Assembly (NCBI RefSeq): GCF_030408815.1
Contig: NZ_CP047355.1
Location: 2,294,001 to 2,358,000 of the forward strand
Reading direction: 5' to 3'
Source of the DNA: Corynebacterium freiburgense
GTDB lineage: Bacteria; Actinomycetota; Actinomycetes; Mycobacteriales; Mycobacteriaceae
Length of the DNA stretch: 64,000 nucleotides
Shown here: piece by piece, positions 6,322-33,769 of the stretch
Numbering within the stretch: the stretch's first letter is position 1
Layout: each line of letters opens with the position of its first letter
Made by a program: the position numbers and the translations under genes
The notes under the pieces: generated by a model
Told to the model about the DNA's origin: nothing
The model's database searches: none
The model's input: only the letters and a program-made list of their open reading frames with translations

Positions 6322-6432
6322 CCCTCTATCTTAGAGAGTCACTTAGCAACCACCTATCCGTGGGGTTTTCTGCCGGATATATATGGCTCAGGTTTTGGCT
6401 TTGCTCTGGTTTCGAAGCGGATTGGTGCGGGC

Positions 6433-6480
6433 GCGTGTTGGTTTTGTGAGCGTGAGGCGTGTTGGTTTTGTGAGCGTGGA
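6433..6480. repeat. 24-bp tandem repeat, two units
   Basis: Two adjacent 24-base units (6433-6456 and 6457-6480) that begin GCGTGTTGGTTTTGTGAGCG and differ only in the last bases. It lies upstream of valS, next to the AGGCAGATTTA motifs. Confidence 0.8.
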
Positions 6481-6483
6481 TGC

Positions 6484-6524
6484 AGGCAGATTTACGTTTG
6501 CTCGTGGCGGGAAAGGCAGATTTA
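6484..6524 (+). repeat. Two AGGCAGATTTA dispersed motifs
   Basis: AGGCAGATTTA occurs at 6484-6494 and 6514-6524. The same core occurs in the gene-free parts near 24.8, 45.1 and 52.5 kb, each time as two or more copies, so it looks like a piece of an interspersed repeat family. Confidence 0.6.
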
Positions 6525-7087
6525 ACATCGCGCACGATGCGTCTGTGCGTTTCTCTAGTTCGGACTACCCTTCCAGCGGTGCACTATTTATATCTGCCTT
6601 TTCGCCTTCGCTCTTGGGCACATTACTTTCCTTTTACCATAAAAACTCATCGACTTTATAACAGAATCACATTGAAATCGAGTTTTAGGCAGGTTTTCTG
6701 CGGTATACTCTTCACAACGTAATAAAAATACAAACTGACTATCAACTACCCCCGAAGTGTATTCGGAAATATGACGAGCATCACGGAGAAATTTTTAAAG
6801 GGATTACTTTTACATTTAGGGTTTTTTCATATCGGTGGCAGTTTTTGTGCAGCAGCGTGGAAATAACGGATTAATTTTCACAATTCCTTACCGACTATTC
6901 CCACACTGAACAACATCGTTTTTCAATGACCCACTATATAAGTGCATGTTGTTTTACCTGGTAGCCAAACCGCGCGGGGGTAGTTAGACGAATGGCGCAA
7001 AACCCTATTCTAGCTGCAGGTATACTGTTTTCTTTTTTAAAATCAGAGTAGAATACATTGTAAGAACGACGGAAGGTGAAGGAAACA

Positions 7088-8491
7088 ATGGATCAGCAAT
7101 GTAAATCTGAGCCTATTGGTTTCCTTATGCACCATCCCGATAATGTGATTGGCGCTTTTGAGGTTTTACAAAATCAACACTTTTTGCGCACGTATTTATC
7201 TGCAACGGTCGGTGTGGATTTCCTACATTCGAATATTGATGAGATTGTCAAAGATCTCTCCACATTAAGTGGGCAATACTCTGAAGCGAAAATGCGGAAT
7301 ATTATGGGTGCGTGTTTCTTATTGCACCACTACCTGCCGAAGCTGAAAAATTTAGCCCTCGAACTCGGGCACTTGAACTATGAAATGCTGCGCACAATTT
7401 GGTATGGACTTGTTGCTGCGCCTTGTTTTGGTACTCCAGGTGAATTATGGCGCAGAATCGATGAGTTTTTAGTAGATAAACTAAGCCCGCATTACCCGCG
7501 GCAAGCTATGCCGACATGGCAGTATATTCGGCAGGCACTCCAAGACGAGCTCATTCGACTTGGGCTTTACGACGACCCAGAAGACCCTGATGTTCCAAGT
7601 AAGGAAACTGCGGAACTGATAACGCAGGCGAACTTTGGTGTAGAGCTAATTCGCTCTAGCCAAGTAGGGGCCTCAACGATGATCGTCACCATGCCTAGTG
7701 ATACAGCCCATATTGTGAAAGAACATATTGAGGTAGCAGCAAAAGACCAGGGAATCCGCCAAGACGAAGTCATTGCTGTAAAGATCTGTGGTGAACCAAC
7801 CACAACACCAACACATACGGTCCAAATCTTTGGAGTTTGCGAAATCGACCCCGACGAACAAGTCACTATGGTTCATGCGCAAAGCATTGGTCGGCTTACA
7901 AAAACTCAACAGCTGCGGTTGTCGCAGGACTACACATACGTTAACGCGGCGTCGATAGCCGAACAATGCCGAGCCACGCATGATCCCACACCTGCCCAAC
8001 GCATGGTGGTTATGCTGCGCGATGGCACCTGCCGCTTCCCGGGCTGCACGGTCGACGCCAGAAAATGCGATATCGACCATGTGATCAATCACAAGGCCGG
8101 AGGATGGACCACAGTTTCGAATCTGCAATCATTGTGCAGGCATCACCATAACTTTAAAACTGATAGACATGTCCACGCGACCAGTGATGAATACGGAATC
8201 ATAACCTGGGAATTTAACACCGGGCAAACAATTACCACCCAGCCGTTAGGAGCACTTGGCGGGATTATCGCAGGCCCCAGTGAGGGCATTACCGGCAGAC
8301 ACCCCAACGCCACAGAATCGGAAGAATATTCGAGACGCCCGCCGGGTAACCATGGGCTAGGTCGGTGGGGCACCACGCTCCAAAAGCAACGTAATAAACA
8401 GCGAAAACGGCACCTTGAACGCTATGGGATACCCCTGTCCGCAGGCGATCAGTACCTGGACTGGCTCGAATTTCAAGTCCACGCAATGTAA
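7088..8491 (+). CDS. HNH endonuclease domain protein with DUF222-type N-terminal region
   Basis: A protein of 467 residues. The C-terminal part has an HNH nuclease motif: CRFPGCTVDARKCDIDHVIN followed by LCRHHHNFKTD (about residues 320-365), with two Cys pairs that could hold a structural zinc. The helical N-terminal region resembles the DUF222 (13E12 repeat) proteins that are common in mycobacteria and corynebacteria; their role is unknown and they are often associated with repeats. ATG 7088 is preferred over the in-frame GTG 7076 because GAAGGA at 7078-7083 sits correctly before it. The 3' end overlaps gabD by 19 bases, converging. Confidence 0.8.
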   Translation: MDQQCKSEPIGFLMHHPDNVIGAFEVLQNQHFLRTYLSATVGVDFLHSNIDEIVKDLSTLSGQYSEAKMRNIMGACFLLHHYLPKLKNLALELGHLNYEMLRTIWYGLVAAPCFGTPGELWRRIDEFLVDKLSPHYPRQAMPTWQYIRQALQDELIRLGLYDDPEDPDVPSKETAELITQANFGVELIRSSQVGASTMIVTMPSDTAHIVKEHIEVAAKDQGIRQDEVIAVKICGEPTTTPTHTVQIFGVCEIDPDEQVTMVHAQSIGRLTKTQQLRLSQDYTYVNAASIAEQCRATHDPTPAQRMVVMLRDGTCRFPGCTVDARKCDIDHVINHKAGGWTTVSNLQSLCRHHHNFKTDRHVHATSDEYGIITWEFNTGQTITTQPLGALGGIIAGPSEGITGRHPNATESEEYSRRPPGNHGLGRWGTTLQKQRNKQRKRHLERYGIPLSAGDQYLDWLEFQVHAM

Positions 8492-9927
8492 CGGGGATTG
8501 AGGTACTCCTCTATGCCCTCAGTGCCGCCCTCGCGCCCGAAGCCAGATTCCTTTACCCCGCCAAACGGTGCAGCTGGATCTGAAATCGCCCCGCGATTAA
8601 TACCGATCATTCCTGCACGCAAATTCTCCGCCAAAAACTGCGCACAATGAACATTCTCCGAAAAACCATACGCAGCCAATCCAAACTGAGTATCGTTGGC
8701 TCGAGCAACTGCATCTTCCAGATCAGTAAACGTACTAACCGTAGCCACCGGACCGAAAATCTCTTCATGCAAAATTGCGGCATTATTCGGAACATCAACC
8801 AACACTGTCGCCGGATAGAAAAAACCTGGCCTGTCTGGCACTATGCCACCAGTGGTTGCCCGAGCACCACCAGTAAGAGCATTATCAACCAGGGCAGCAA
8901 TTCGATCTCGCTGCACGGCTGTAATCATTGGCCCCAAGGTTGTAGACGGTTCAAGGCCGTGTCCTATCCGATACCCCGCCATCGCTTGTGTAAACCGATC
9001 AATAAACTCGGCACTTATGTCCTCATGAACAAAGAAGCGATTCACTGCAATGCAAGCCTCTCCCCCATTACGCATCTTCGCCTGTAGTGCGCACCCCAAA
9101 GCCAAATCTAAATCAGCATCCGCAGCAATTACACAGGGAGCATTACCTCCGAGTTCCATTGAAGTCCGTTGCAAACAATCTGCCGATTGCCGCACCAATT
9201 GCTTCCCCACCGCCGTGGATCCAGTAAACGTAACTTTCCGCAACCGAGAATCAGCCAGTAGCTGCTCTGACATTGCCGCAGCCTGCAAAGTAGTAATAAT
9301 ACTAACGACGCCGCTCGGCACCTTGTATTTGCCAAATACTTCAGCGATCACTTTCCCAAGCAGCAACATAGTCAATGGGGTTTCCGCAGCTGGTTTAACA
9401 ATAATAGGGCATCCAGCAGCCAATGCAGGAGCGATTTTCCGGGTTGCCATGGCCAGTGGAAAATTCCACGGCGTAATCGCTAACACTGGCCCAACTGGCG
9501 TTCGATCAACCAATATGGTTCCGGTTCCAGCAGGGGCTTTCGCTATACGCCCCGGGATACGCACCGCCTCTTCGGCAAACCACCGAAAATACTCAGCCCC
9601 GTATGCAACCTCGCCAAAAGCTTCCGCATATGGTTTTCCCATTTCGGTGCTTATGACCGTAGCGAACTCATCTTTTCGCTGCATTACTTCTACAAAGATC
9701 TCATGGAGAACCTCGGATCTTAAACGCGGCGCCCACCCAGCCCATTCATATTGAACGGCATCCGCAAGTTCAAGGGCCCGCAGCCAATCTTCGCTCCCAG
9801 CATTGGCCACTTCTGCGATGACCTGTTCGGTTGCAGGATCAATAACAGGCAATGTTTCGCCTTGTGCGGCGGGAACTTGGTGGTTTCCAATCCACAATAG
9901 GGTTGGTACAGCAGCTAATTTATTCAT
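8473..9927 (-). CDS. gabD: Succinate-semialdehyde dehydrogenase
   Basis: A 484-residue aldehyde dehydrogenase. It shows the NAD(P)-binding ITPWNFPLAMATRKIAPALA region, the general-base glutamate in MELGGNAP, and the catalytic cysteine in NGGEACIAVNRF. In the GABA shunt it oxidises succinate semialdehyde to succinate in the cytosol. It follows gabT with two bases between them, so the pair is one operon. The substrate is inferred from the neighbour gabT; the fold alone would allow other semialdehydes. No GABA permease gene adjoins it. Confidence 0.9.
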   Translation of the reverse strand: MNKLAAVPTLLWIGNHQVPAAQGETLPVIDPATEQVIAEVANAGSEDWLRALELADAVQYEWAGWAPRLRSEVLHEIFVEVMQRKDEFATVISTEMGKPYAEAFGEVAYGAEYFRWFAEEAVRIPGRIAKAPAGTGTILVDRTPVGPVLAITPWNFPLAMATRKIAPALAAGCPIIVKPAAETPLTMLLLGKVIAEVFGKYKVPSGVVSIITTLQAAAMSEQLLADSRLRKVTFTGSTAVGKQLVRQSADCLQRTSMELGGNAPCVIAADADLDLALGCALQAKMRNGGEACIAVNRFFVHEDISAEFIDRFTQAMAGYRIGHGLEPSTTLGPMITAVQRDRIAALVDNALTGGARATTGGIVPDRPGFFYPATVLVDVPNNAAILHEEIFGPVATVSTFTDLEDAVARANDTQFGLAAYGFSENVHCAQFLAENLRAGMIGINRGAISDPAAPFGGVKESGFGREGGTEGIEEYLNPRYIAWT

Positions 9928-9929
9928 GT

Positions 9930-11264
9930 CTACCTCTCCCCGTGTTGTTGAATTGCCTCGCGCAAAACCTGCAACCCTTCGCGTAGTAGCGCCTCGGGGA
10001 TAACTAACGGTGGTAGGAGGCGAATCACATTTCCATCCATTCCACAGGTCAGGATTAGCACTCCTGCTGCTTTACATTCTGCTGCAATAGCAGCTGTTAC
10101 CTTGGGATTGGGTTGGTCATATGCATTAACAAATTCTATGGCAATCATGCCGCCACGCCCACGAATTTCCGCTACTATTTCCAATTCTGCAACTTCGGCG
10201 AGTTCTTCGCGGATAATCGCTTCGATTTCTTGTGCCCGGCCATGAAGACCTAAATCTTCCATTTCTTCTATTGCAGCAAGTGCCGCCGCACAGGCCACGG
10301 GGTTTCCACCGTATGTACCCCCGAGACCCCCAACGCCTGGGGCGTCCATAATTTCCGCACGGCCAGTTACCGCAGATAATGGCATTCCTCCGGCAAGACC
10401 TTTTGCGGTGGTAATTAAATCGGGACAAATGCCTTCATGCTCAGCCGCGAACCAAGCTCCGGTACGACTCATGCCAGCCTGAATCTCATCGAATACCAGG
10501 ACCACATCATTGGTGGTGCACCACCTGGATAATGCTTGGAGAAATCCAGGCGCAGGCACAATAAAGCCGCCTTCGCCTTGAATGGGTTCGATCACTACGC
10601 AGGCAAGATTTTCTGCTCCGACTTGCTGTTCAATCATAGTGATTGCACGGTCGGCGGCTTGTTCACCTGTGAGTTTATCCCGCAGTGGGTAGGACATTGG
10701 TGCCCGGTAAACATCGCTGGCAAACGGACCGAACTGGCTTTTATATGGTTTATTTTTCGCCGTCATTGCCAACGTAAGATTTGTGCGACCATGATATCCA
10801 TTGTCGAACACAACAACGCCGTTTTTCTTGGTGTAGGCGCGGGCGATCTTCACCGCGTTTTCTACTGCTTCCGCACCGGAATTAAGAAGCACAGTTTTCT
10901 TTGTATGGTCTCCCGGGGCAAGGGAATTAAGTTTTTCCGCCACCGCAATATATGGCTCATATGGGCTGACCATAAAACATGTATGCGTAAAGTGTTGGGC
11001 TGCTTCCGCTATTGCCTCAGCCACTTTTGCATTTCCGGCGCCAACGGTAGTAACAGCTATTCCAGAGGCAAAATCAATAAAGGAGTTTCCGTCCGCATCA
11101 ACGAGCACGCCGCCATCCGCATCGACGACATAGCCTGGCAGCCCGGGTGCTAGCGCACTGGCTACTGCGGCTTCCCGGCGTTCATTAAGTTCTGCACTTT
11201 TCGGTCCTGGCAAAACAGTAGTAATACTGCGTTTTTGCGGTAGTCGATAGTCAAGGTCTTTCAT
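9930..11264 (-). CDS. gabT: 4-aminobutyrate aminotransferase
   Basis: A 444-residue class III PLP-dependent aminotransferase. Key sequences are VLNSGAEAVENAVKIAR (cofactor phosphate binding), FDNGYHGRT, VIEPIQGEGG, LVFDEIQAGMSRTG with the PLP-binding Asp, and TTAKGLAGGMPL with the Schiff-base lysine. It moves the amino group of GABA to 2-oxoglutarate to give succinate semialdehyde and glutamate. It is the first gene of a gabT-gabD operon and is divergent from a PucR-type regulator 117 bases away, which most likely controls it. Confidence 0.93.
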   Translation of the reverse strand: MKDLDYRLPQKRSITTVLPGPKSAELNERREAAVASALAPGLPGYVVDADGGVLVDADGNSFIDFASGIAVTTVGAGNAKVAEAIAEAAQHFTHTCFMVSPYEPYIAVAEKLNSLAPGDHTKKTVLLNSGAEAVENAVKIARAYTKKNGVVVFDNGYHGRTNLTLAMTAKNKPYKSQFGPFASDVYRAPMSYPLRDKLTGEQAADRAITMIEQQVGAENLACVVIEPIQGEGGFIVPAPGFLQALSRWCTTNDVVLVFDEIQAGMSRTGAWFAAEHEGICPDLITTAKGLAGGMPLSAVTGRAEIMDAPGVGGLGGTYGGNPVACAAALAAIEEMEDLGLHGRAQEIEAIIREELAEVAELEIVAEIRGRGGMIAIEFVNAYDQPNPKVTAAIAAECKAAGVLILTCGMDGNVIRLLPPLVIPEALLREGLQVLREAIQQHGER

Positions 11265-11381
11265 TGGGGCTGCCTCTCACGATCATTTCAGGTCACAAAA
11301 ATCATGTATTGTGACGGCCAACGCGGTCTATGTGCAGCGCGGCGAAACTTTCGACCCAAAATGTCCACTTTGGAGGGTTGT

Positions 11382-12884
11382 ATGGCAACACCATTATTAA
11401 GTGTGCGGTGGCTTCTCCATCAGCGCGCCCTGGCGCTTCAAGAGGTTATTCCCGCAACACGCGATTTTGAAATTGTACAGACTAGTGAATTGCCCGACCC
11501 ATCCCAGTTTTTGCTCCCCCATTCAATTGTGCTCACTATTGGAATAAGTTTTCAAAATAACGAACACCAATTTGGCGAATATATGAGCCGATTAGCGGAC
11601 GCAGGGGTTGTTGCACTGGGTTTTGGTACCGGGCTTGCATTTCAATCCATCCCCCAGGCGCTTATCGACGCCGCGAAACACCACCATATCGGCCTCTTTG
11701 AGGTTCCACATGACACACCTTTTATTTCGATTCAAACGGTTGTAAATAAGGAAATAGCAAACCGGCAAATACGCCAACAGGAACGGCTTGTAGCCTCACA
11801 GCGTCGCGCCAACCAAGCGGCAATCACCGGGGGCGTCGAAAAGCTCATCGAACAGCTTGCTATCGATCTACAAGCAGCAGTGGCCATTAAGGACAATGAT
11901 CAACGGCTTATTACACACTCCAAGTACGGCGCATTGGATGCAACCAAGCCCGCCGAAGATGCTTTTGTAATCAACCATAAAATGCTGACATTTGGAGATA
12001 GGTTTCACCAACTCATTACGGTAAGTGACACCCCACTAGATTCAGCACAACGCAACCTTGTAAAGCACTGCGCAAGCCTGGCTGACCTGCTATTACAACG
12101 TCCACACTCCCTGCGGAATGCTCGCAGTGAATTAAATGCACTAGCTCTTTCAATGCTGCTGGGGTTTGCCGGTGAAGCCAGCCAAATAGAAAAGATATTT
12201 GCCGGTATTGCAGATTCACATGGGCATGTGCGGCCGGTGGTGATTCATTCCAATATTGATCGACACATTAATCAAGCCATTGAAACTATCGACAAAAACC
12301 TTGTAGTGCATACCCGCGAACTTTGCAGTATTCATCTGGACAAATACACAGCACTATTTCTTTTCCGCGGCTCACGTGAAGTGGAAAATATTATCGAACT
12401 ATTTGGCGAATACACTGCAAAGATTCGAATATGCATTGGAGGTTCTCGCCCATGGAAGAGTGTTGATCAAGAATTGATACGTTCCCTGGTAACCTCAGCG
12501 AAATCTATTCCCCTTGGAGAACACCTAGGGCCACAAGGAAATACGCTTGCGTGGCTCCGTGGCAGCGCCGTTATGGACGCATTGGATCAACGAGCACATG
12601 AAACCCTTGGACGATTGGAAAACCATGACCGCCAGCATGACACCCATCTTCGTCTTACCTTAGCCACGCACCTACAACGCGGCGCCCAAATCACTGCCAC
12701 TGCTGAAGCTTTAGGAATCCATCGCCACACCGTTCGCAGCCGCCTCGAACGAATCTCCGAAATTTGCGAGGTTGATCTAGAAAACCCTGTGACCAGGGCC
12801 GAGCTATTGCTGGTAACTGTCACCCGGAAACCAGTAACAGACGAAAGCCGCCACCTTGGAATGAACCAAGATGACGGCTTATAG
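11382..12884 (+). CDS. PucR-type transcriptional regulator of the gab genes
   Basis: A regulator of 500 residues. The N-terminal purine-catabolism/PucR-type domain covers about residues 1-130, and the C-terminal PucR helix-turn-helix contains ITATAEALGIHRHTVRSRLERI (within residues 446-470) followed by NPVTRAELLL. It is divergent from gabT-gabD. PucR-type regulators activate the gab operon in Corynebacterium glutamicum, so the same role is inferred here. ATG 11382 is chosen because GGAGGG lies 5 bases before it; an in-frame ATG at 11304 has no ribosome site. Confidence 0.82.
   Translation: MATPLLSVRWLLHQRALALQEVIPATRDFEIVQTSELPDPSQFLLPHSIVLTIGISFQNNEHQFGEYMSRLADAGVVALGFGTGLAFQSIPQALIDAAKHHHIGLFEVPHDTPFISIQTVVNKEIANRQIRQQERLVASQRRANQAAITGGVEKLIEQLAIDLQAAVAIKDNDQRLITHSKYGALDATKPAEDAFVINHKMLTFGDRFHQLITVSDTPLDSAQRNLVKHCASLADLLLQRPHSLRNARSELNALALSMLLGFAGEASQIEKIFAGIADSHGHVRPVVIHSNIDRHINQAIETIDKNLVVHTRELCSIHLDKYTALFLFRGSREVENIIELFGEYTAKIRICIGGSRPWKSVDQELIRSLVTSAKSIPLGEHLGPQGNTLAWLRGSAVMDALDQRAHETLGRLENHDRQHDTHLRLTLATHLQRGAQITATAEALGIHRHTVRSRLERISEICEVDLENPVTRAELLLVTVTRKPVTDESRHLGMNQDDGL
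12845..12880. terminator. Possible terminator hairpin at the 3' end of the pucR-type gene
   Basis: AGCCGCCACCTTGG and CCAAGATGACGGCT form a 14-bp stem with two G-U-type mismatches and a 5-base loop, overlapping the last codons of the regulator and lying between two converging genes. No clear T-run follows on either strand, so function as a terminator is uncertain. Confidence 0.35.
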
Positions 12885-12892
12885 CCAACGAG

Positions 12893-14529
<1,637 letters not shown>

Positions 14530-24232: not shown

Positions 24233-24404
24233 CCGCAATACAAAAAATAAAATACTCCCTGCATGTTGGACTCTCGGACCAGTTCTTTATGTGGGGAGTT
24301 CTTTATGTGGGGTGATTTTGCCCAGTGGTTGGGCTTATGTGTTTGTTGTGTCGGTTGGGGCTGGGTGGGGATTGGTTGGTCGGGTTGGGGGGGGTGGCCG
24401 GTCT

Positions 24405-25092
24405 TTTTGGGTCTGGTTGGGCGGTGGTTGGGTGCTGGTTGGGCGCTGGTTGGGCGTGTTGTCACAGATTCCATTTTTTCGGCGGATTTTATGGAATCTG
24501 CGACACGATAGGTAGGGAACCTGTCACAGATTCCATTTTTTTCGCTGTTTTTATGGAATCTGCGACAAACCCCAGGTCAACAGTTGTGCGCAATGTTGGT
24601 TGCTGTCACAAATTCCATTTTTTCAGGCGATTTTATGGAATCCGTGACAGTAGGACTGAAAACATCACTAGTTTGATAGGGCACGCCTATCAAACACCCC
24701 GGAAAGCGGCTCGAAGGCTCGGGAAACCAGCCAACTCACCCAGGAAACCAGCTCAAACCCCCCGGGAAGCCCTGGATTTTCAGCCCACCTGCCCCGAAAT
24801 CAGGCAGATCTGACACACCCCACCACCCAGCAAAGGCAGATTTCACATCACCCACAACCCGCCACAACATTTCCCCAGCTCACACCCCCAAACCAAGATC
24901 CCACAACACAAATCTGCCGGCCTGAGCCTTTCCCAGGCCCGGCTGGGCCTTCCTATGCCTGTTCCAGACTTTCCTAAAGCCTTCCACATCCGCCTCGGGT
25001 ATCCCACCCCATATCCCAAACCCTGCCCAAACCCACCCCCCCCCAAAAAAAGCACCATAAAACAAAAACCAGTCCAACCTCCAGGGCCAAGT
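24405..25092. repeat. Composite dispersed repeat, copy 1
   Basis: A non-coding element that matches 52150-52724 along its length in the same orientation. In order it has a G/T-rich lead (GGCGCTGGTTGGGCGTG), three similar hairpins, GTAGGACTGAAAACATCACT, a short hairpin (GATAGGGC/GCCTATC), CACCCCGGAAAGCGG, two AGGCAGAT motifs, a C/A-rich part and CAAAAAAAGCACCAT before the end. Copy 1 has extra sequence in its right half relative to copy 2. It fills the gap between the DUF1542 gene and rpiB. No gene is seen inside. No terminal inverted repeats or target duplication were recognised. Confidence 0.85.
24460..24649. repeat. Three tandem hairpins TGTCACAGATTCCAT / ATGGAATCTGCGACA (copy 1)
   Basis: Arms at 24460-24474 with 24491-24505, 24522-24536 with 24553-24567, and 24604-24618 with 24635-24649. 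Each stem is 15 bp with one or two mismatches and a T-rich loop of 16 bases. Confidence 0.85.
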
Positions 25093-25739: not shown

Positions 25740-26885
25740 ATGTCCCATGCGCCAGTGGTTCGCACAGTCCGGCATGACATTAATACCAAACCGTTTATTG
25801 TAATTTGGGAGGTCACCAGGGCTTGCAGCTTGGTATGCAAGCATTGTCGGGCAGACGCCCAGCACGAACCTAATCCAAAACAGCTCACCACCGAGCAGGG
25901 CTTTGCCTTGCTGGAGAACCTAGCGTCATATGACAAGCCTCGCCCGCTGCTTGTTCTTACCGGCGGCGATCCGTTCGAGCGCGGCGATCTCGAACAATTA
26001 GTCGCTTATGGTACCGGCCTTGGGCTCAATGTTTCCCTTTCACCTTCGGTCACCCCAAAGCTCACAGTTGAACGTATTACTGGTTTGCGGGAAGCCGGGG
26101 CAAAAGCAATGTCTATGTCATTAGACGGAGCAACTGCCGCCACACACGACGCATTTCGTGGTTTTCCTGGAACATTTGAGCAAACACTCGCTATGGCGCC
26201 AGAGATCAATAAACTTGGCTACCGTTTGCAAATCAATTCCACGCTTACTCGAAGCAATATTCATGAAGCCCCTGCGCTATTAAAGCAGGTCATGGATATG
26301 GGAGCGAAAATGTGGTACGTGTTCTTTTTAGTCCCCACGGGCCGCGGAGCAGCCTTGAATTGCCTCGACCCACAAGAACGTGAGGATGTCTTACATTGGC
26401 TTGCGGATGTATCCACCCGCATTGCTATTAAAACCACAGAAGCCCCGCAATACCGGCGCGTGGTGATCCAAAATAAGCAAGGGGTACCTTTTACCGGCGG
26501 AGAGCTATACCAACAGCTCACCGAAGAGACCACCAAGCTCCTTGGTGCTCAGCCGATTAATCCGCGCCCACCGCGTGCTCCTATGGCGGTAAATTCCGGA
26601 TCAGGATTCGCATTTATTGACCATATTGGGGACGTATATCCCAATGGTTTTCTGCCCTTGCACTGTGGGAATGTTACGGAAACAGACTTCCACACTATCT
26701 ACAGCGATTCCCCGGTATTCCAAGCCTTGCGTGACCCGGATAATTGGCATGGCAAATGTAGTGTGTGCGAGTTTCATGGCGTATGTGGTGGTTCCCGTTC
26801 CACGGCTTTTGCAGTTACTGGTGATTATCGCGCATCCGACCCGACCTGCGCATATATCCCCGAGGCTTGGAAGCAGGCAAGTTAA
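25740..26885 (+). CDS. Radical SAM / SPASM protein (TIGR04053-like)
   Basis: A 381-residue protein. The radical SAM cluster motif CSLVCKHC lies at residues 30-37 (WEVTRACSLVCKHCRADA), followed by LTGGDPFERGDL. The C-terminal SPASM-like region has CGN, then CSVCEFHGVCGGSR and a final Cys in DPTCAY, enough for an extra iron-sulfur cluster. It resembles the TIGR04053 group, related to haem-d1 and AhbD-type enzymes, which is common in Actinobacteria. The substrate is unknown. GAGGAG precedes ATG 25740. It lies on the strand opposite the sactipeptide cluster, so membership in that cluster is doubtful. Confidence 0.85.
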   Translation: MSHAPVVRTVRHDINTKPFIVIWEVTRACSLVCKHCRADAQHEPNPKQLTTEQGFALLENLASYDKPRPLLVLTGGDPFERGDLEQLVAYGTGLGLNVSLSPSVTPKLTVERITGLREAGAKAMSMSLDGATAATHDAFRGFPGTFEQTLAMAPEINKLGYRLQINSTLTRSNIHEAPALLKQVMDMGAKMWYVFFLVPTGRGAALNCLDPQEREDVLHWLADVSTRIAIKTTEAPQYRRVVIQNKQGVPFTGGELYQQLTEETTKLLGAQPINPRPPRAPMAVNSGSGFAFIDHIGDVYPNGFLPLHCGNVTETDFHTIYSDSPVFQALRDPDNWHGKCSVCEFHGVCGGSRSTAFAVTGDYRASDPTCAYIPEAWKQAS

Positions 26886-26887
26886 TG

Positions 26888-26913
26888 ATGGATCACGTAA
26901 AATCGTGATCCAT
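26888..26913. promoter_or_regulatory. Perfect palindrome over a putative -10 box
   Basis: ATGGATCACG (26888-26897) and CGTGATCCAT (26904-26913) are perfect 10-base arms around TAAAAT (26898-26903). TAAAAT is a good -10 box and the ATG of the next gene follows 8 bases later, so the palindrome may be an operator on a leaderless promoter. A terminator for the preceding gene is less likely, as no T-run follows. Confidence 0.5.
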
Positions 26914-27754
26914 GAGGATGGCGGGCGCTTGTGCGTCACTAGTGGTAGTACTCGGGGTTTTGCTTCATGGATGTGCCCCGCTTCCGATCGAACCGGGTGG
27001 GCCGGCAGCCCCTGGCCCACAGTCGTTTCCGGATCTTGATGCCTTGCCGGTTAAAGGACGCGCCCCCAAAACCGGTTATGAACGGGAGCTCTTCGGCCAG
27101 GCTTGGACCGACGACGTGACCGTTGAAGGCGGCCGAAATGGTTGCGATACCAGGAATGATATTCTCCGACGTGATCTGGTTGATATTACGTTAAAGCCTG
27201 GAACCAGCGATTGCGTAGTGCTTACCGGCACATTGATCGACCCTTACACCACCCATCAAATCGCTTTCCAGCGTGGCGAGCATACTTCTCCTGCGGTACA
27301 AATCGACCATATTGTGTCCTTATCCAATGCATGGCAAACAGGTGCACAACAGCTCACGCCGGAACAACGCCGCGATTTCGCCAATGATCCCCGCAATCTT
27401 ATCGCCGTCGACGGCCCAACAAACCAGCATAAAGGCGACGGAGATGCCGCGACTTGGCTCCCACCGAATAAAGCCTTCCGTTGTGAATACATACAACGCC
27501 AAATCACTGTAAAAACCCACTATGGTTTATGGGTCACACAAGCGGAAAAAGACGCCATGGCGCGTGTATTAACCACCTGCAACACCGAGACACCTGGCGA
27601 AATACCAGCCCCCGCACCTGAAGACGAACCGCTTTATCGAAACTGCAAAGAGGCGTGGCATGCGGGCGTCGCTCCAATCCATAAAGGTCAACCCGGCTAT
27701 CGAACCGACATGGACGGCGACGGTGACGGCATCGCATGTGAACCTCGCCGATGA
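26912..27754 (+). CDS. Exported HNH nuclease lipoprotein with excalibur domain
   Basis: A 280-residue protein. The N-terminus is a lipoprotein signal (hydrophobic VVVLGVLLHGC, lipobox LLHGC at about residues 17-21). The middle is a DUF1524/HNH-type nuclease: QIDHIVSLSNAWQTGAQQLT, then NDPRNLIAVDGPTNQHKGD. The C-terminus (about residues 240-278) is an excalibur calcium-binding domain: YRNCKEAW...GYRTDMDGDGDGIACE. Such proteins are thought to degrade DNA at the cell surface; the function here is inferred. No ribosome site precedes ATG 26912, which fits a leaderless transcript; ATG 26918 is possible. The 3' end overlaps the next gene by 58 bases. Confidence 0.85.
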   Translation: MRMAGACASLVVVLGVLLHGCAPLPIEPGGPAAPGPQSFPDLDALPVKGRAPKTGYERELFGQAWTDDVTVEGGRNGCDTRNDILRRDLVDITLKPGTSDCVVLTGTLIDPYTTHQIAFQRGEHTSPAVQIDHIVSLSNAWQTGAQQLTPEQRRDFANDPRNLIAVDGPTNQHKGDGDAATWLPPNKAFRCEYIQRQITVKTHYGLWVTQAEKDAMARVLTTCNTETPGEIPAPAPEDEPLYRNCKEAWHAGVAPIHKGQPGYRTDMDGDGDGIACEPRR

Positions 27755-28548
27755 ACGCCCCGATATGCGTATCGACGCCCCACCGCTTGCGGAACCGTCG
27801 CACCAACAACGCTTAAATGCTCACCCACAATAATTCCGCCAAGAGCAATTGACACTGCCAGCGCCAAACCACCGCTGACCATGGCACTGGTGGTAAATAT
27901 TTCCACCGAAACCATGCCTATACCGAAAACAAAAGTAAGAAAAGCGCTGACCAAAAGCGATATCTTTAGCGCAGAGACCGGCAACCCAAGCACCCCTAAC
28001 ACCCATACGATCAAAAGCCCGGGAAGCAATAGAAATAAGTCATTCGGCTGCAATGACGACCCCACGTACGACGAACATAGAACCGCCGCCGCCACAAAAG
28101 CCAAATATTTCCAGTCTTTAATTCTGGCCTTCGTTGGTGGCATCGCTTTAAAAAACATCGCCAAATTAACTATGACAACAATGCACGAAAATAATGTGGG
28201 AGAAACAGGAATCACTGGCGGTACAACACCAGAAATTCGAAAAAGAATAAACGTTAGACTCGGCAAGATAAGTGCCATTGGAATAATCGTGGAAAGCGCC
28301 AATGAAATTCTTATTGGGTCCGCCTTTTGCATATGCCCCATCACCCAAAACAATACGCAATATGTTAAGCCACAAACACAGGATGCAAAAACGAAACAAC
28401 CAATCGCCGTAAACGCAACAGCAGCATTAAACTCATCAAGTGAGCGTTCCGTCGCTTGAACACGAACTGAAACCAATGACAGGATAAATGCAAATATTAT
28501 AAACCCGAAGTACTTTAGCCGCATTAGCAATCGTTTATGAGGATCCAT
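27697..28548 (-). CDS. Multi-spanning membrane protein, AlbG position in the sactipeptide cluster
   Basis: A 283-residue hydrophobic protein with about seven or eight membrane helices and a basic C-terminal tail. No known motif was recognised. It is the last gene of the cluster: its ATG lies inside the end of the M16-like gene (14-base overlap), so it is translationally coupled. In B. subtilis the last gene, albG, also encodes a membrane protein linked to subtilosin production and immunity, so the same position suggests a similar role; sequence similarity was not established. GTG 28551 is an alternative start. The 3' end overlaps the HNH-excalibur gene by 58 bases, so the true end of conserved sequence may be shorter. 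Confidence 0.6.
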   Translation of the reverse strand: MDPHKRLLMRLKYFGFIIFAFILSLVSVRVQATERSLDEFNAAVAFTAIGCFVFASCVCGLTYCVLFWVMGHMQKADPIRISLALSTIIPMALILPSLTFILFRISGVVPPVIPVSPTLFSCIVVIVNLAMFFKAMPPTKARIKDWKYLAFVAAAVLCSSYVGSSLQPNDLFLLLPGLLIVWVLGVLGLPVSALKISLLVSAFLTFVFGIGMVSVEIFTTSAMVSGGLALAVSIALGGIIVGEHLSVVGATVPQAVGRRYAYRGVHRRGSHAMPSPSPSMSVR

Positions 28549-29284
28549 CACGCAAATACCCCATAAGTAATTGAATAACCGAAAAAGGTTGCTCCAGAGC
28601 TAAACTAATATCGTGCTTTACTGTCTCCATGGCAAAAATATCTGCGTTTTTGCCATCCCACTCAGGCCCGTACAAGCCCAGTAAAAATCCCTGGAGCACC
28701 CGGTCATTTTCAATAGGACTGCTTTGTATACTGCCAGCTAGCTCGCATAATAGAAGTTGACCACTGTCAGCCAAATCTGCCTCAAGAACACAACAATCCA
28801 GGCATGCTTGGTTTCTTATTGCTTCAAGGTCATCTTGAGCAATCGCATCTAAATCTTCAGGCGAGCCTAGAAGGTTGAGGTTTTTAATCTTTTGGTAGCG
28901 GTCAATTTCCGCACGCAGAACCTTAGTTTCCGATTCCCATGCTTCGGGTGAACAGCATTGAGATAAAAATTCCTCTATATCTAATGAAAATTCAGGAGGA
29001 AGTATAAACGTAAATTGGATAGCGTGCTGAGTTGAAAACGCTTTGCATGTACCACCAACAAAATAGATTTTTTGTAGTAATTTCCTATTAGCGCGCAGTA
29101 AATAATGCTCTAAAAAGTGCAAATAATAGGGTGGTACTGAGTCACTAAAGAGCTGTAAATCAAGAATTACAACTTTCACCTCAAATGGCCAGCGAACAGT
29201 GAGCACCTTATGGTGACGGAATCCGCTAAGAAACATTGGCCCAAATTGCTGGGTTTTTTGTTGAATAAGGGTTGAAGTTTTCAT
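28535..29284 (-). CDS. M16-type zinc peptidase half, AlbF-like
   Basis: A 249-residue protein with the inverted zinc motif HFLEH (H56, E59, H60), the HxxEH of M16 peptidases, placed near the N-terminus as in that family. The block WESETKVLRAEIDRY (residues 116-130) resembles the ExER-VVLxEI helix that supplies the third zinc ligand. The chain is only one M16 half; the gene upstream could supply the other, as in split M16 heterodimers. In sbo-alb, AlbE and AlbF process the peptide, so leader removal is inferred here. ATG 29284 is chosen because it overlaps the preceding stop (ATGA). A Cys-rich patch (CLDCC) follows near residue 170. Confidence 0.65.
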   Translation of the reverse strand: MKTSTLIQQKTQQFGPMFLSGFRHHKVLTVRWPFEVKVVILDLQLFSDSVPPYYLHFLEHYLLRANRKLLQKIYFVGGTCKAFSTQHAIQFTFILPPEFSLDIEEFLSQCCSPEAWESETKVLRAEIDRYQKIKNLNLLGSPEDLDAIAQDDLEAIRNQACLDCCVLEADLADSGQLLLCELAGSIQSSPIENDRVLQGFLLGLYGPEWDGKNADIFAMETVKHDISLALEQPFSVIQLLMGYLRDGSS

Positions 29285-30081
29285 ACAAAATCCCAATGTG
29301 AATGTGCTTGTTCAAGTTCAAATTGCAGCGCTTCTGGTGTGATGGCAGCTAATGAAGCTTCAAAATATTCCGCATTCCATTCTGGATCCAGCATCCGATA
29401 GCGAAGTAAACCAGTTACTCGGAACTTAGTGGGCTGCATCCGGAAATTCAGCAGCATTGTTGCTTTTGCACCAAGGATTGAGTGTTGAATCCATGTGCCG
29501 GAATGCATTGCCTGCGCAATATTTTTTGTAATACCAGTTACGTCTTTTGGCGAGGCAAATTCGAAGCACAGCCTAAGCTGCAATGTTTGCTCATCAAGCA
29601 CTACCTGGCAGTCGTAACATTCCCCAGATTCAATCACGTGACGCAATGGTGAATATGGGTTATTGCTTTGAAAAAGGTGTGCCAAAATCCGCCAAGCCAA
29701 CAATCGTTCGACTGAAAACACTCCTAGCGGATCTAAGGTCAACATTGTTTTCTGTTGCACGGCTCCCCCACAAGCAGCGAAACTTGTTAATCCAAGCCGC
29801 GTCTTTGGAGGAGTGTAGTGGGCAAAGAACTCTTCCTCGGAAACAAATTTCAATTCTTTGCCCACAAGCTCAAGTGTCCAGGGTGGTCGTTGGCTGCCTT
29901 CACAAAAGGCTACCGAATACACTCCGGTGTAGAAATTTCCGAAGAGTGCATATCGTGTTTGCTGTAGTTGCGAACGCCAAGGGGTTTTGTATCGGTTTGA
30001 AAAATCCCTCAGTGTTGCTTCCGCATACGCTGCTTCGTGCGGAGCCAGCGGTAGATCCGAAATAAAAAGTTGGTGGTTCAT
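29281..30081 (-). CDS. AlbE-like protein, probable partner of the M16 peptidase
   Basis: A 266-residue protein without a recognised motif; it lacks HxxEH. Size, position directly before the HFLEH protein and the ATGA coupling suggest the non-catalytic partner of a split M16 peptidase, as in AlbE/AlbF pairs. This is inferred from context, not from visible homology. A glycine-rich segment GLTSFAACGGAVQQ (about residues 97-110) might correspond to the glycine-rich loop of the inactive M16 half, but this is speculative. It follows the radical SAM gene by 12 bases, with GAGG upstream of its ATG. Confidence 0.5.
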   Translation of the reverse strand: MNHQLFISDLPLAPHEAAYAEATLRDFSNRYKTPWRSQLQQTRYALFGNFYTGVYSVAFCEGSQRPPWTLELVGKELKFVSEEEFFAHYTPPKTRLGLTSFAACGGAVQQKTMLTLDPLGVFSVERLLAWRILAHLFQSNNPYSPLRHVIESGECYDCQVVLDEQTLQLRLCFEFASPKDVTGITKNIAQAMHSGTWIQHSILGAKATMLLNFRMQPTKFRVTGLLRYRMLDPEWNAEYFEASLAAITPEALQFELEQAHSHWDFV

Positions 30082-30093
30082 TATTACTTAACC

Positions 30094-31464
30094 TCAGACA
30101 GACTTTTTATAATGCTCCACTAATTCCGCTGCATCTTGTTTGCGCACCCACTGGCAGTATTGTTTATCATCCCGCTCTGCATTAATGCTTAACGCATGTA
30201 ATAAACAACCTTTACAGTATTGTTTGTGCTCGCAGTTATTCGCGCAACCACTGTGTTCACTTGGCGCAGTTATATCGTGCAGTTTTAGCGCTATTGCACT
30301 AGAGAATAAATCTGTCCAATTACGCTCGAGCGCGTTTCCGAATGCAAATGTCTCTGGGAATAGGTTGCAAGGACGGAGATCCCCCGAGGCACTAATAACC
30401 ACCGAATGCGTACCGGCTCCACAATGATTTCGAACAGCTTCTTCGCTACGCTCCTCCTCTTGAAAAACTGGAATAATATCTCGGTATTTTTCTACAGTTT
30501 TTTCGATGTAATTCGCGTACTCGATTCCTTCTTGTATTTGCTGTTCTACCAGTAGATCCTTGCCACGCCCATAGCTCTCAATGAAATTAAACGAAAACAT
30601 TTTCGCACCTAACTCATGGGCCTGCTTTGCCATTGCATCAAGTTCCCAGAGGTTGTCATCAAAAAGTACAGCAGTAATACGGACGAAAATTCCAGCTTCA
30701 GTCAGCTTCCGGATATTTGCCACTGTTTTTTCATAGGCTTTCCGATGGTTACGAAGCTTATTATGAGTTTCCGGTTTTACTGAATCCAGTGAGATTGATA
30801 CCGTGACGCGGTCTTTATGCTCAACCAATTGGTGCAGTACCCTGTCTGTAAGGATTGTGCCATTTGTTAACACACCAACCTCCGAAAATTCAGCAAACGC
30901 TATTTCTAGCATTTCCGGGAATTTAGGATGCATAAACACTTCCCCACCCGTGAGCTGGATTCTGTAGACGTGTTCAGCTGACATTGTTTTGCATAGTCGC
31001 CGGAAGGACTCCAAAGTAACACGATCATTGCGCTTCGGACCTGCAGAAAGGTAGCAATGTGCACAAGATTCATTGCAGGTATTAGTGATCTCTATAATGA
31101 CGGACCGAGGTGTCGAAGGACTAGCAGATTCCAAGACCGGGATGGACACTACAGGTTTTGAGTCTGCTTGAGTTAGATCCGTTACATGGATAACAGATGA
31201 GCTCACCATTGTTGCGATGAAGTTTTCTATCCAATGGCGGCATTTTAATTCATCAAGGTGGTGCTCATTACAAAACGAATGCACAAATTCCTGTGAGCTT
31301 TGACATTTTTCTAGATGCTTAAGAAGCAATACTGCTGTGTCATTTACGTCAAACCCATCCCATATTTCTTGACCTTGCTGGTTTAGTTTTTTAAACGCAA
31401 TTGTGTTTCCATTTGCGGTTGAGAAGATTTTTAATTCACGCGCAGGTTTAAGCGCTATTTGCAT
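30094..31464 (-). CDS. Radical SAM / SPASM sactisynthase, AlbA-like
   Basis: A 456-residue protein. Residues 1-95 look like a PqqD-type peptide-recognition domain (FKKLNQQGQEIWDGFDVNDT, then helices). The SAM cluster motif CNESCAHC is at residues 130-137, followed by LTGGEVFMHPKF. The C-terminal SPASM region has HCGAGTHSVVISASGDLRPC, then CANNCEHKQYCKGC and a final Cys in DKQYC, giving ligands for two auxiliary iron-sulfur clusters. Size and layout match AlbA (448 residues), which forms the Cys-sulfur to alpha-carbon links of subtilosin. With the subtilosin-like precursor in the same operon, sactionine formation is a strong inference. Confidence 0.88.
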   Translation of the reverse strand: MQIALKPARELKIFSTANGNTIAFKKLNQQGQEIWDGFDVNDTAVLLLKHLEKCQSSQEFVHSFCNEHHLDELKCRHWIENFIATMVSSSVIHVTDLTQADSKPVVSIPVLESASPSTPRSVIIEITNTCNESCAHCYLSAGPKRNDRVTLESFRRLCKTMSAEHVYRIQLTGGEVFMHPKFPEMLEIAFAEFSEVGVLTNGTILTDRVLHQLVEHKDRVTVSISLDSVKPETHNKLRNHRKAYEKTVANIRKLTEAGIFVRITAVLFDDNLWELDAMAKQAHELGAKMFSFNFIESYGRGKDLLVEQQIQEGIEYANYIEKTVEKYRDIIPVFQEEERSEEAVRNHCGAGTHSVVISASGDLRPCNLFPETFAFGNALERNWTDLFSSAIALKLHDITAPSEHSGCANNCEHKQYCKGCLLHALSINAERDDKQYCQWVRKQDAAELVEHYKKSV

Positions 31465-31485
31465 GAGATTACCTTAGGTTATTAT

Positions 31486-32631
31486 TTACACTGCGTTTCC
31501 AGTAGCGAGCTCATAGAGGAACATCAGTACGCCGCAGAAAAGTACTGGTAGGTACTTTCTCGGATGCCGGAACACGTCTCGTTCACTTTTTGTGTTAGTG
31601 AGCGGGAATTTAAATTCCAACCAAACACTTAATACTGTCCCTATAAGTGCGATGCATAAACCAAAAATAATGTCGAGTGGCGTCCATAGACCCCACCATG
31701 CCGCAACCGCCCATTGAAATGCGATGCCGAGTATAAAAATCGGAAAAATTACTTTCCCTAAACGTATGGCTGTCTTCCATTCGTCACCGAGCAATCGAAC
31801 TTGTTCGAGCGTGTCTTTTTCTCTACTCAATATTGTTGTCATTGGTGTATTTACAAGAGCAAGAATCCAAAAAATCTTTATCGGCCCCTGCTCTTGGCCA
31901 ATCACATAGGCAATCAGCACTGCAAATACATTTATTAGGAAAAAGCTGCTCCATGCTCTTGGGTCTAAAAGTCCATTTGCAAGAAAGTAGTTTTTCGTTT
32001 TACAGCGAATAAATGTAACGACCCTTAATTCCTCGGCTTTATACGCGCGTGGAATGACGAGAGCGAATCGAAACACCACTATCAGGCAGAATATTACAAG
32101 TGCTATTCCAAACCAGGGGCTGACGTATTGGGCCAATACTCCAATGAGTATTGGCAGACTATATGAAGTCAATCCCGCATATTTCCATGGCAGTGCGCTT
32201 GCTGCGAATATTAATGCTGCAACGAGCACAAGATATACCATTAACACTGCCAGCAATATACGACTACCTTGCCCAGCAGTAAGTAGAAAAACAAGCATCG
32301 GAATGCCTGCTTCTAGGAGAAATACCCCCGTAGCCAATAACACAAATGCGATGACCAGTGTTCGTTCACGAAAGGGATATACAAGAAGTTGCTCGAAGCG
32401 CTCGTCGTCTAGCCATCCGTTTTTAATGGTGCGGGCAAAAAAGACTGTACCAACGGTTAGTCCGAAGAACACCTGACTGTAATTCACCGTAGGAATTAAA
32501 TCCGATATAAAGTACAGCAATGCGCCAACAAGCACGCAAGTAACAAATACGCTGCGGTTTATAAACTCAGCAGCTACGGCAGAAATCGACCATCGTAGAT
32601 CATGAGTTTTGAGAGACGAGTTTGATAACAT
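31486..32631 (-). CDS. ABC-type exporter permease, AlbD position
   Basis: A 381-residue protein with about ten membrane helices and no signal peptide. It has no conserved motif that I recognise, but it starts inside the ABC ATPase gene (32-base overlap) and so is coupled to it. In sbo-alb, AlbC and AlbD form the ABC transporter linked to export and immunity; this protein holds the AlbD place. ATG 32631 is chosen because GGGAGG lies 6 bases upstream; an upstream in-frame ATG at 32655 has none. Confidence 0.7.
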   Translation of the reverse strand: MLSNSSLKTHDLRWSISAVAAEFINRSVFVTCVLVGALLYFISDLIPTVNYSQVFFGLTVGTVFFARTIKNGWLDDERFEQLLVYPFRERTLVIAFVLLATGVFLLEAGIPMLVFLLTAGQGSRILLAVLMVYLVLVAALIFAASALPWKYAGLTSYSLPILIGVLAQYVSPWFGIALVIFCLIVVFRFALVIPRAYKAEELRVVTFIRCKTKNYFLANGLLDPRAWSSFFLINVFAVLIAYVIGQEQGPIKIFWILALVNTPMTTILSREKDTLEQVRLLGDEWKTAIRLGKVIFPIFILGIAFQWAVAAWWGLWTPLDIIFGLCIALIGTVLSVWLEFKFPLTNTKSERDVFRHPRKYLPVLFCGVLMFLYELATGNAV

Positions 32632-33319
32632 CTTCTGCCTCCCGCGGGACGTCAAGAAGCCCGCTCAGCGAGCCCTCTTTTAACACATACAAATAGTCAC
32701 AACATCGGGTAAAAGATTCCGCAATATGAGAACTCAAGAAAACCGAGTTTCCGTTCATTGCGTACTGTGTAATGCACTCGTATAAGAATTCCGTACCCAC
32801 AAAATCTAGAAAGTCAACAGGTTCATCCAAAATAAGAAGTGGGCGCGCAATTGCAAATGCACAGATAAGACGTGCTTTTTTATTATTGCCGCTGGATAGG
32901 TTTCGTAGCTGCTTCTGAATATGCGGTTCAAAATTGAATCCCGCTACAAGGTGAGCTACCAGTCCTTCATCCACTTCAAGTCCATAGACTCCGCAAACAT
33001 ATTCTAGATATTGCCGAAAGTTCCATGCGAAAAAACTTCGATCATCAGCAAATACGGTGTATCGCATTTGCTTAAATGCTCGGGCTCCAGGGGATGATTC
33101 AGTGCCTCCAGCATTAAAACTTGAACACTTCCAACCCGGAAGAATACCGGACAGACCTTTGATGAGGGTAGTTTTACCCGCACCATTACCACCCAAAAGA
33201 CCAATAACATTACCTTTTGGTATATCCAGTTGTGCAGCCTTGGCAATCACTTCGTCTGGTTTGTACCAAACTTCAATATCCTTGGCTGCCAACTGAAGTA
33301 CATGCTGCGAATCGAACAT
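32600..33319 (-). CDS. ABC transporter ATP-binding protein, AlbC-like
   Basis: A 239-residue ATPase, the same length as AlbC. Walker A is GGNGAGKTT (residues 43-51), the signature motif is degenerate (NLSSGNNKKARL), Walker B is LLILDEPVDFLD and the switch His is in SSHIAES. It drives the membrane protein encoded next in exporting the peptide or keeping it off the producer, by analogy with subtilosin. ATG 33319 lies 5 bases after the stop of the small membrane protein gene. A longer form from 33376 would overlap that gene by 50 bases. Confidence 0.88.
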   Translation of the reverse strand: MFDSQHVLQLAAKDIEVWYKPDEVIAKAAQLDIPKGNVIGLLGGNGAGKTTLIKGLSGILPGWKCSSFNAGGTESSPGARAFKQMRYTVFADDRSFFAWNFRQYLEYVCGVYGLEVDEGLVAHLVAGFNFEPHIQKQLRNLSSGNNKKARLICAFAIARPLLILDEPVDFLDFVGTEFLYECITQYAMNGNSVFLSSHIAESFTRCCDYLYVLKEGSLSGLLDVPREAEDVIKLVSQNS

Positions 33320-33323
33320 TGGA

Positions 33324-33500
33324 TTACTCGGGTTTTCCGGTGCCTTTAGGTTGCGCTGCTGAGCGGATCGTAGCAATAACGAGCAATACAGCTGCGGCTC
33401 CCACAGTGAGCACGTCGAAGCCGAACCCGCTTCGCATATACAGCATGATAGTTAATCCGATAAAAATAAGGGCAAGAATCGCTTTAATGATGAAATACAT
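33324..33500 (-). CDS. Small two-helix membrane protein, AlbB-like
   Basis: A 58-residue protein with two hydrophobic helices (about residues 2-22 and 28-45, with VLTVGAAAVLLVIATI) and a short basic tail. AlbB of B. subtilis is a membrane protein of similar size (53 residues) that contributes to immunity; size, topology and position support the same role. ATG 33500 is chosen over 33506 because AGGAG (33507-33511) lies 6 bases before it. The gene is too small to be found by homology alone with confidence. Confidence 0.65.
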   Translation of the reverse strand: MYFIIKAILALIFIGLTIMLYMRSGFGFDVLTVGAAAVLLVIATIRSAAQPKGTGKPE

Positions 33501-33563
33501 GATCATCTCCTAGAGCATTTCAAACGGTGCGGGACAAGAATTTGGTATCATTGTCCCTAACAC

Positions 33564-33605
33564 CGCCAAGCGTTATGGTTCTCGCAAAGAAAGAAACGCT
33601 TGGCG
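33564..33605 (-). promoter_or_regulatory. Hairpin between precursor gene and biosynthetic genes
   Basis: CGCCAAGCGTT (33564-33574) and AACGCTTGGCG (33595-33605) form a perfect 11-bp stem with a 20-base loop, starting 24 bases after the precursor stop. No T-run follows on the minus strand. Such hairpins often allow partial termination or mRNA stabilisation, giving more precursor than enzyme. Confidence 0.6.
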
Positions 33606-33628
33606 ATGTTGGAAGGCTTTCGGCTGTC

Positions 33629-33769
33629 CTATCGAAGATGGAATAGGGCAGCCGCAAGTCCAAATTCAAAATCCGGAATTGGACCGGAAATGGCGCACAG
33701 TGCCCCTGCAGAACAAGCGGAGCAACGGGATCCGTTTACTACTTCAGCTGGTGCTAATTCGGTGTACAT
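33629..33769 (-). CDS. Subtilosin A-like sactipeptide precursor
   Basis: A 46-residue peptide preceded by a near-perfect ribosome site (AAAGGAGGG, 3-4 bases before the ATG). It has Cys at 16, 19 and 25 and the block GPIPDFE at 29-35. Mature subtilosin A has Cys at 4, 7 and 13 and the same GPIPDFE at 17-23; from the first Cys to the third-last Leu, 17 of 30 residues match by eye. The Cys acceptors Phe22 and Phe31 of subtilosin are Phe34 and Phe43 here; the third (Thr28) is Ala40. The C-terminus ends in His-Leu-Arg instead of the Leu-Trp-Gly of subtilosin. The leader would be about 11 residues if the core begins at Asn12, giving a 35-residue core like subtilosin. Cleavage site and cyclisation are inferred. 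Confidence 0.9.
   Translation of the reverse strand: MYTELAPAEVVNGSRCSACSAGALCAISGPIPDFEFGLAAALFHLR

Follow-up and report, generated by a model that had tools for sequence, protein, structure and literature searches.

A probable subtilosin A-family bacteriocin gene cluster in Corynebacterium freiburgense

We analysed a 64,000-nucleotide stretch of the Corynebacterium freiburgense genome (contig NZ_CP047355.1, positions 2,294,001 to 2,358,000; hereafter the window, whose host genome amounts to 2.96 Mb in two contigs), in which eight minus-strand open reading frames occupy positions 27697–33769 with intergenic gaps of 122, 4, -32, 21, 12, -4 and -14 bases. Judging from the genes, their order, their conservation and their motifs, all read from the sequence, these eight genes very probably encode a precursor peptide of the subtilosin A family together with a set of proteins in the roles of AlbA to AlbG, which are predicted to produce and export a thioether-locked bacteriocin, with likely self-protection. 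A preliminary description of this DNA had placed a subtilosin-type cluster here; the eight minus-strand genes lie at exactly the coordinates it gave, its protein sizes and its gene order (B-C-D-A-E-F-G) are correct, and the call itself is supported by the family match of the precursor, the best-matching family of the radical SAM enzyme and the conservation of the cluster in relatives. The whole order is sbo-B-C-D-A-E-F-G, with the following features.

33629..33769, minus strand: sboA-like precursor, 46 amino acids (PF11420, alignment to 1pxq, conservation in two species)
33559..33610, minus strand: long hairpin between the precursor gene and albB (folding energy against shuffles, pairing in 3 sequences)
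33324..33506, minus strand: albB-like small membrane protein, 60 amino acids (hydropathy; name from place and size only)
32600..33319, minus strand: albC-like ABC transporter ATPase, 239 amino acids (PF00005)
31486..32631, minus strand: albD-like permease, 381 amino acids (hydropathy; weak match to a permease on contig L028, described below)
30094..31464, minus strand: albA-like radical SAM/SPASM enzyme, 456 amino acids (Pfam, NCBIfam AlbA, motifs)
29281..30081, minus strand: albE-like protein, 266 amino acids (structure model)
28535..29284, minus strand: albF-like M16 peptidase, 249 amino acids (zinc motif, structure model)
27697..28548, minus strand: albG-like membrane protein, 283 amino acids (hydropathy, place)

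The precursor, whose gene is preceded by the ribosome-site-like sequence AAGGAGGG, matched the Pfam family Subtilosin_A (PF11420) with 37.7 bits (cut-off 25) and aligned (E 3e-7) to 1pxq, the subtilosin A chain of known structure. Its cysteines, C16, C19 and C25, have the subtilosin spacing C-x2-C-x5-C and are accompanied by a GPIPDFE block; spacing and block are fixed, and all three cysteines invariant, in five of five aligned precursors. The precursor is also the best-conserved product of the cluster, being 83% identical in Corynebacterium canis (genome G150) and 85% in a third species (G234), as compared with 37–70% for the other products. Codon comparisons with C. canis revealed 21 synonymous and 8 non-synonymous differences, 25 of the 34 changed bases falling at the third place of a codon (p 2e-6), and those with G234 revealed 22 and 7, with 27 of 37 changes at third positions (p 1e-6); read from its codons, the precursor is under purifying selection. 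We considered and rejected the possibility that this is a chance frame, since it is conserved in relatives and under such selection.

At E 1e-30 the AlbA-like enzyme found matches in 4 of 242 Corynebacterium genomes, and the complete eight-gene cluster is present in 3 of the 242 (C. freiburgense, C. canis and G234), at one chromosomal place and in the same order, which argues that the cluster is not a product of chance. All eight frames are open in these three species, an apparent internal stop in the C. canis AlbB being the normal end of the protein, beyond which the alignment runs a few columns. Identities to the C. freiburgense proteins in C. canis and G234, respectively, are 48 and 47% for AlbB, 70 and 67% for AlbC, 54 and 53% for AlbD, 63 and 64% for AlbA, 44 and 37% for AlbE, 38 and 37% for AlbF, and 52 and 51% for AlbG, while the six flanking genes compared are 69–91% identical. 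PF11420 matched 3 of 201 genomes of the genus, a draw that, judging by its numbering, did not include G234; among 396 genomes of the phylum, for each of which no more than 19 first-look candidates were scored among the matches listed, only that of C. freiburgense matched. A fourth species, G115 (locus 10559–14356), has a precursor of 42 amino acids, AlbA, a small frame, AlbC and AlbD in a Bacillus-like order. In 20 kb of DNA at this locus we found no match to AlbF or AlbG and only short matches to AlbE (E 0.13 or worse), and a search of the whole genome, which is 88% complete, gave no match to AlbF. Conservation of the precursor frame, on which the preliminary description had let its proposal depend, was observed in C. 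canis, G234 and G115, each of which also has an AlbA-like gene.

A comparable set of genes was found beside two near-identical subtilosin-like precursors on an IMG/VR contig of 29% G+C (L028, locus 4215–11759), the only one of 80 loci kept that we examined. It shares with the C. freiburgense cluster subtilosin-like precursors (with a GPVPDFE block in L028), an AlbA that is 37% identical, AlbB, AlbC and AlbD, and an AlbE and an AlbF, which in L028 have 311 and 285 amino acids (285 by the start chosen; 307 from the first start codon). It differs in its order, sbo-sbo-transposase-A-E-F-G-B-C-D, and in a Ser at the place of T28; the transposase-like gene before albA and quorum-sensing-like genes were named by eye. 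This set counts in favour of a subtilosin-type cluster. Compared across three arrangements (C. freiburgense, L028 and Bacillus), B, C and D appear to be relocated together. A DNA pattern for GPIPDFE, which would miss GPVPDFE as in L028, found 8 stretches in viral contigs: 6 contained a closed frame carrying the motif, none of which resembled subtilosin on inspection by eye, and two (L111 and L114) had no such frame.

The AlbA-like enzyme combines the Pfam families Radical_SAM (above cut-off) and SPASM (22.7, cut-off 21.5), and its best NCBIfam family is AlbA, with 258.9 bits, 135 bits ahead of SkfB and NirJ2 (the latter a heme d1 family), which tied at 123.5. This supports the role given to it in the preliminary description and agrees with a place among the sactisynthases, on which that description had made its proposal depend. 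The radical SAM motif is C130-x3-C134-x2-C137, and the SPASM cysteines are C348, C366, C407 (assigned by eye), C411, C417, C420 and C437; across an alignment of 17 enzymes, C130, C134, C137, C348, C366, C411, C417, C420 and C437 are present in every one. The PqqD-like (RRE) N-terminus is weak, with 18.0 bits (E 0.0036), below the cut-off of 23.4.

The two proteins proposed as a split M16 peptidase are indeed short, at 266 amino acids (AlbE-like) and 249 amino acids (AlbF-like), and so fall below M16B subunits of about 50 kDa with two full domains. The AlbF-like protein has the motif H56-F-L-E59-H60 plus E119 and E126, and HXXEH and both Glu are invariant in six of six AlbF-like sequences from about three lineages; with HXXEH and a distal Glu in a modelled M16 fold it has the marks of an M16 peptidase, while Pfam detected no M16 family in it at E 1. 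Residues about 101–266 of the AlbE-like protein were modelled as an M16 C-terminal domain and contain no HXXEH, and a search of PDB sequences with an AlbE profile gave no match. Among the top structure matches of the models were the crystal AlbF and AlbE chains of Quasibacillus (Bacillus) thermotolerans AlbEF (7y8u/7y8v), whose AlbF likewise has HFLEH and a distal Glu, 72 residues from the second His according to a table in PMC12731061, as against 66 (H60 to E126) here. The AlbF model spans the range 19–335 of the crystal chain with just 198 residues aligned. The Q. thermotolerans chains are given as 366 and 381 amino acids (PMC12731061); by the models, each of ours would comprise roughly a single M16 domain and some remnant sequence. 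In the AlbF-like protein the domain with the zinc motif would be complete, and the AlbE-like protein would retain mainly the last domain. We also considered that the AlbE-like protein might have an R/Y pair of the M16 type and dropped the idea, since by eye the candidate Arg and Tyr seemed misplaced in the model.

AlbE and AlbF are the fastest-changing genes of the cluster (37–44% identity to C. canis and G234), and this, together with the missing AlbF match in G115, would fit a cluster that is decaying or silent, with short AlbE and AlbF remnants and no mature peptide. We regard this as very improbable: the eight frames are open in all three species, the zinc motif is invariant, the AlbF of L028 is also short and the precursor is under purifying selection.

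Of the putative transport proteins, the AlbC-like ATPase matched PF00005 with 54.1 bits and is 40% identical to the ATPase of the L028 cluster. The AlbB-like protein has hydrophobic stretches at residues 2–20 and 29–47, the AlbD-like protein about nine and the AlbG-like protein seven. Pfam detected no family in the AlbD-like permease at E 1, its match to the L028 permease being weak (25% over 166 columns, E 1.4e-9), and the AlbG-like protein had no sequence match to the L028 protein in the AlbG place (hhalign E 0.085, probability 0.7%). A membrane set of this kind fits export and immunity, and this, with the close likeness of the precursor to subtilosin A, makes it very unlikely, in our estimate, that the peptide serves mainly as a signal or cell-surface factor rather than as an antibacterial.

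Several observations weigh against a subtilosin-type cluster as proposed here. NCBIfam contains no family that matched the precursor; the names AlbB, AlbD and AlbG rest largely on place, size and hydropathy; and the AlbE model is poor across residues 1–109. The enzyme's 258.9 bits are far under the AlbA equivalog cut-off of 850 (NF012164), so we name it AlbA-like only. In addition, each of the 17 aligned enzymes, scanned singly, matched AlbA (best E 3.3e-103), but all 25 families listed matched 17 of 17 as well (next best E 1.2e-38); as at least 24 other families do so, only the scores separate the families and the AlbA count by itself says little. The low score and the tie of SkfB and NirJ2 for second place leave a slim chance that the enzyme makes ranthipeptide (beta- or gamma-carbon) or other links instead of alpha-carbon thioethers, against which stand the 135-bit lead of AlbA and the position of the ranthipeptide maturase PapB, which was matched, outside the 25 best families for the C. 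freiburgense enzyme. Closure of the peptide into a ring is also unsure, as the C-terminal residue of the precursor differs between species (R, N or H).

The remaining objection concerns the acceptor residues. Subtilosin A uses Phe22, Thr28 and Phe31, and the corresponding residues here are Phe, Ala and Phe, or Phe, Leu and Phe in C. canis and G234, so that we place the precursor in the subtilosin A family and not as subtilosin A itself; in G115 the F31 place is occupied by Trp. Bacillus subtilis AlbA reportedly does not process the F22A, T28A or F31A variants (PMC8172795), and the replacement of T28 thus speaks against the proposed chemistry: the corynebacterial enzymes would have to accept another middle residue or skip it. 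Should they skip it, a two-bridge peptide would result, in which the two Phe residues corresponding to F22 and F31 are the sole acceptors from this set, with the middle Cys left free, otherwise bonded or linked to a different residue. In favour of this alternative, Ala or Leu occupies the T28 place in all three orthologous clusters, and B. subtilis AlbA reportedly leaves T28A unprocessed. We nonetheless consider it somewhat unlikely, in that the three cysteines are invariant in all five precursors, variation at position 28 is common in the family (Ala also in G115 and in the precursor P0004; Ser in L028) and ruminococcin C reportedly uses Ala12 among its acceptors (PMC8172795). The mass of the core minus 6 H that had been predicted for the peptide presumes three thioethers; with the Thr28 acceptor replaced, losses of 4 H and 6 H are both possible. 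Monoisotopic masses calculated for a loss of 6 H are 3383.600 (cyclic) and 3401.611 (linear) if the core starts at Gly13, and 3497.643 (cyclic) and 3515.654 (linear) if it starts at Asn12, the putative leader border; each bridge fewer adds 2.016.

In the three-bridge pathway that we favour, all chemistry and activity of which we infer, the AlbA-like enzyme would bind the short leader via its PqqD-like N-terminus and would join the three Cys sulfurs to alpha-carbons in the C-terminal arm, namely those of the Phe matching F22, of the residue that stands in for T28 (Ala; Leu in C. canis and G234) and of the Phe matching F31. Next, the shortened M16 pair, in which the AlbF-like protein carries the zinc motif and the AlbE-like protein is its partner, would cut the leader and probably close the ring head to tail. 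AlbB, AlbC and AlbD, together with AlbG, would carry the peptide out of the cell and make the producer immune. More tentatively, and with doubt prevailing, we propose that this Corynebacterium branch may combine an AlbA-type enzyme that links the middle Cys to an Ala or Leu alpha-carbon with a minimal two-domain M16 peptidase-cyclase, to which AlbF and AlbE contribute roughly one domain apiece and which may be the smallest of its kind.

In the proposed scheme, the hairpin that follows the precursor gene would favour the precursor message, lifting its level above that of the enzyme mRNA. The 141-nucleotide region between the precursor gene and albB has a minimum free energy of -53.7, compared with -31.8 for shuffles (z -6.07), and the long hairpin forms a 16-pair stem in which 47 of 48 cells are paired over 3 sequences from three species. 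Compensatory changes occur in 2 of the 16 pairs, and 61 of 500 shuffles do as well, so covariation is weak with these 3 sequences. A weaker second hairpin follows at about 33531–33557. As no T run follows the long hairpin, it is not a standard terminator; it likely regulates or stabilises the precursor message at the level of the mRNA. Rfam gave no match at gathering scores, and a scan for promoters and terminators showed no clear excess over shuffles.

With regard to the history of the locus, an empty site was found in G023, where the flanking order of C. freiburgense is kept, the HNH and DsbA-like genes overlap by 4 bases and there is no cluster. The common order is LemA-like, RpiB, TIGR04053 radical SAM, HNH, DsbA-like and aminopeptidase, in which the LemA-like, RpiB, DsbA-like and aminopeptidase names are assumed from the look of the proteins. 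The eight cluster proteins, compared with the G023 site, gave a sole hit, of AlbA to the TIGR04053 enzyme. HNH matches were found in 26 of 41 genomes, C. freiburgense included, among which direct adjacency of the HNH and DsbA-like genes, judged by coordinates where both share a contig, occurred only in G023. The aminopeptidase of G023 is 64% identical to that of C. freiburgense, as compared with 77 and 74% in C. canis and G234; with G023 thus the more distant, gain of the cluster in the ancestor of the three species and loss in G023 both fit.

Cluster G+C is 44.5% in C. freiburgense (49.3% for the whole window), 56.0% in C. canis (surroundings 59.5%) and 55.9% in G234 (59.8%). The drops of 3.5 and 3.9 points in the latter two, alike despite these species' own base composition, suggest that the cluster is old, and we judged a very recent insertion unlikely for the same reason. 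In a tree of 38 enzymes, those of C. freiburgense, C. canis and G234 group together (100/98), P0009 (C. tuberculostearicum) and P0010 join them (five rows, 100/98), G115, P0011, P0012 and P0013 join next (nine rows, 100/98), and L028, on a long branch, falls with the Clostridium protein P0025 in a separate group (98/93). The simplest reading would be that the cluster entered the genus once, long ago, and was reshuffled afterwards. Enzyme P0009 is 46% identical to that of C. freiburgense and comes from an 85-contig genome; our guess, given its absence from the four matching genomes of the 242, is that it is strain-variable. Searches of plasmids with the precursor, and of plasmids and phages with the subtilosin segment, gave no match; the radical SAM enzyme matched 4 plasmid records at 24–28% identity, and a scan of genome contigs gave one distant match in a metagenome-assembled genome.

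Some features of the neighbourhood are recorded here in their own right. The TIGR04053 radical SAM/SPASM protein (window 25740–26885; 524.8 bits, cut-off 395) adjoins the cluster and is unrelated to the AlbA-like enzyme. The last 58 bases of the albG-like gene overlap the opposite-strand HNH/GmrSD_C gene (window 26912–27754), whose product ends in an Excalibur domain (Pfam); C. canis and G234 conserve the sequence of this tail, which the HNH gene of G023 lacks. At about 24260–24700, between the LemA-like and rpiB genes, overlapping-frame translations suggest imperfect DNA repeats.

With B. subtilis sbo-albABCDEFG, the order given in the literature, the cluster shares the precursor family, the Cys spacing, GPIPDFE, an AlbA-like enzyme, the ABC pair, an M16-type pair and membrane proteins in the AlbB and AlbG places. 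It differs in gene order, in the Ala or Leu at the T28 place, in the length of AlbE and AlbF, in its C-terminal residue and in its actinobacterial host. Staphylococcal clusters, such as those of Staphylococcus pseudintermedius (PMC12300986), reported from dogs and cats, and hyicin of S. hyicus (PMC8326336), are subtilosin-type and from Gram-positive hosts, in that case Bacillota; some annotated staphylococcal sets reportedly lack AlbB or AlbG.

The preliminary description knew of no such cluster in Corynebacterium. Our literature search, which covered titles, abstracts and some passages (most matching papers by title or abstract only), likewise found no subtilosin-type cluster described in the genus, and the passages covered of PMC10885120, PMC8549736, PMC9927478 and PMC8326336 mention none. 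Two records qualify this: NCBI names the C. canis precursor (P0002; that of G234 is P0003) 'subtilosin A family bacteriocin [Corynebacterium canis]', and BAGEL4 called a 'sactipeptide BmbF' area in C. amycolatum ICIS 9, in a report whose main text does not contain the word 'subtilosin' (PMC8878833).

The probable product would be a new variant of the ring-locked bacteriocin, from a host other than those that usually carry such clusters. If so, subtilosin-type bacteriocins would extend into the Actinomycetota, and there would be natural substrates in which Ala or Leu fills an acceptor place where the Bacillus enzyme reportedly does not take Ala, so that acceptor choice by AlbA-type enzymes could be tested on matched natural pairs. 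A detailed mechanism for ring closure by M16 peptidases was described as lacking in a 2025 review (PMC12731061), and the half-size AlbE/AlbF pair may offer a compact system in which to address it.

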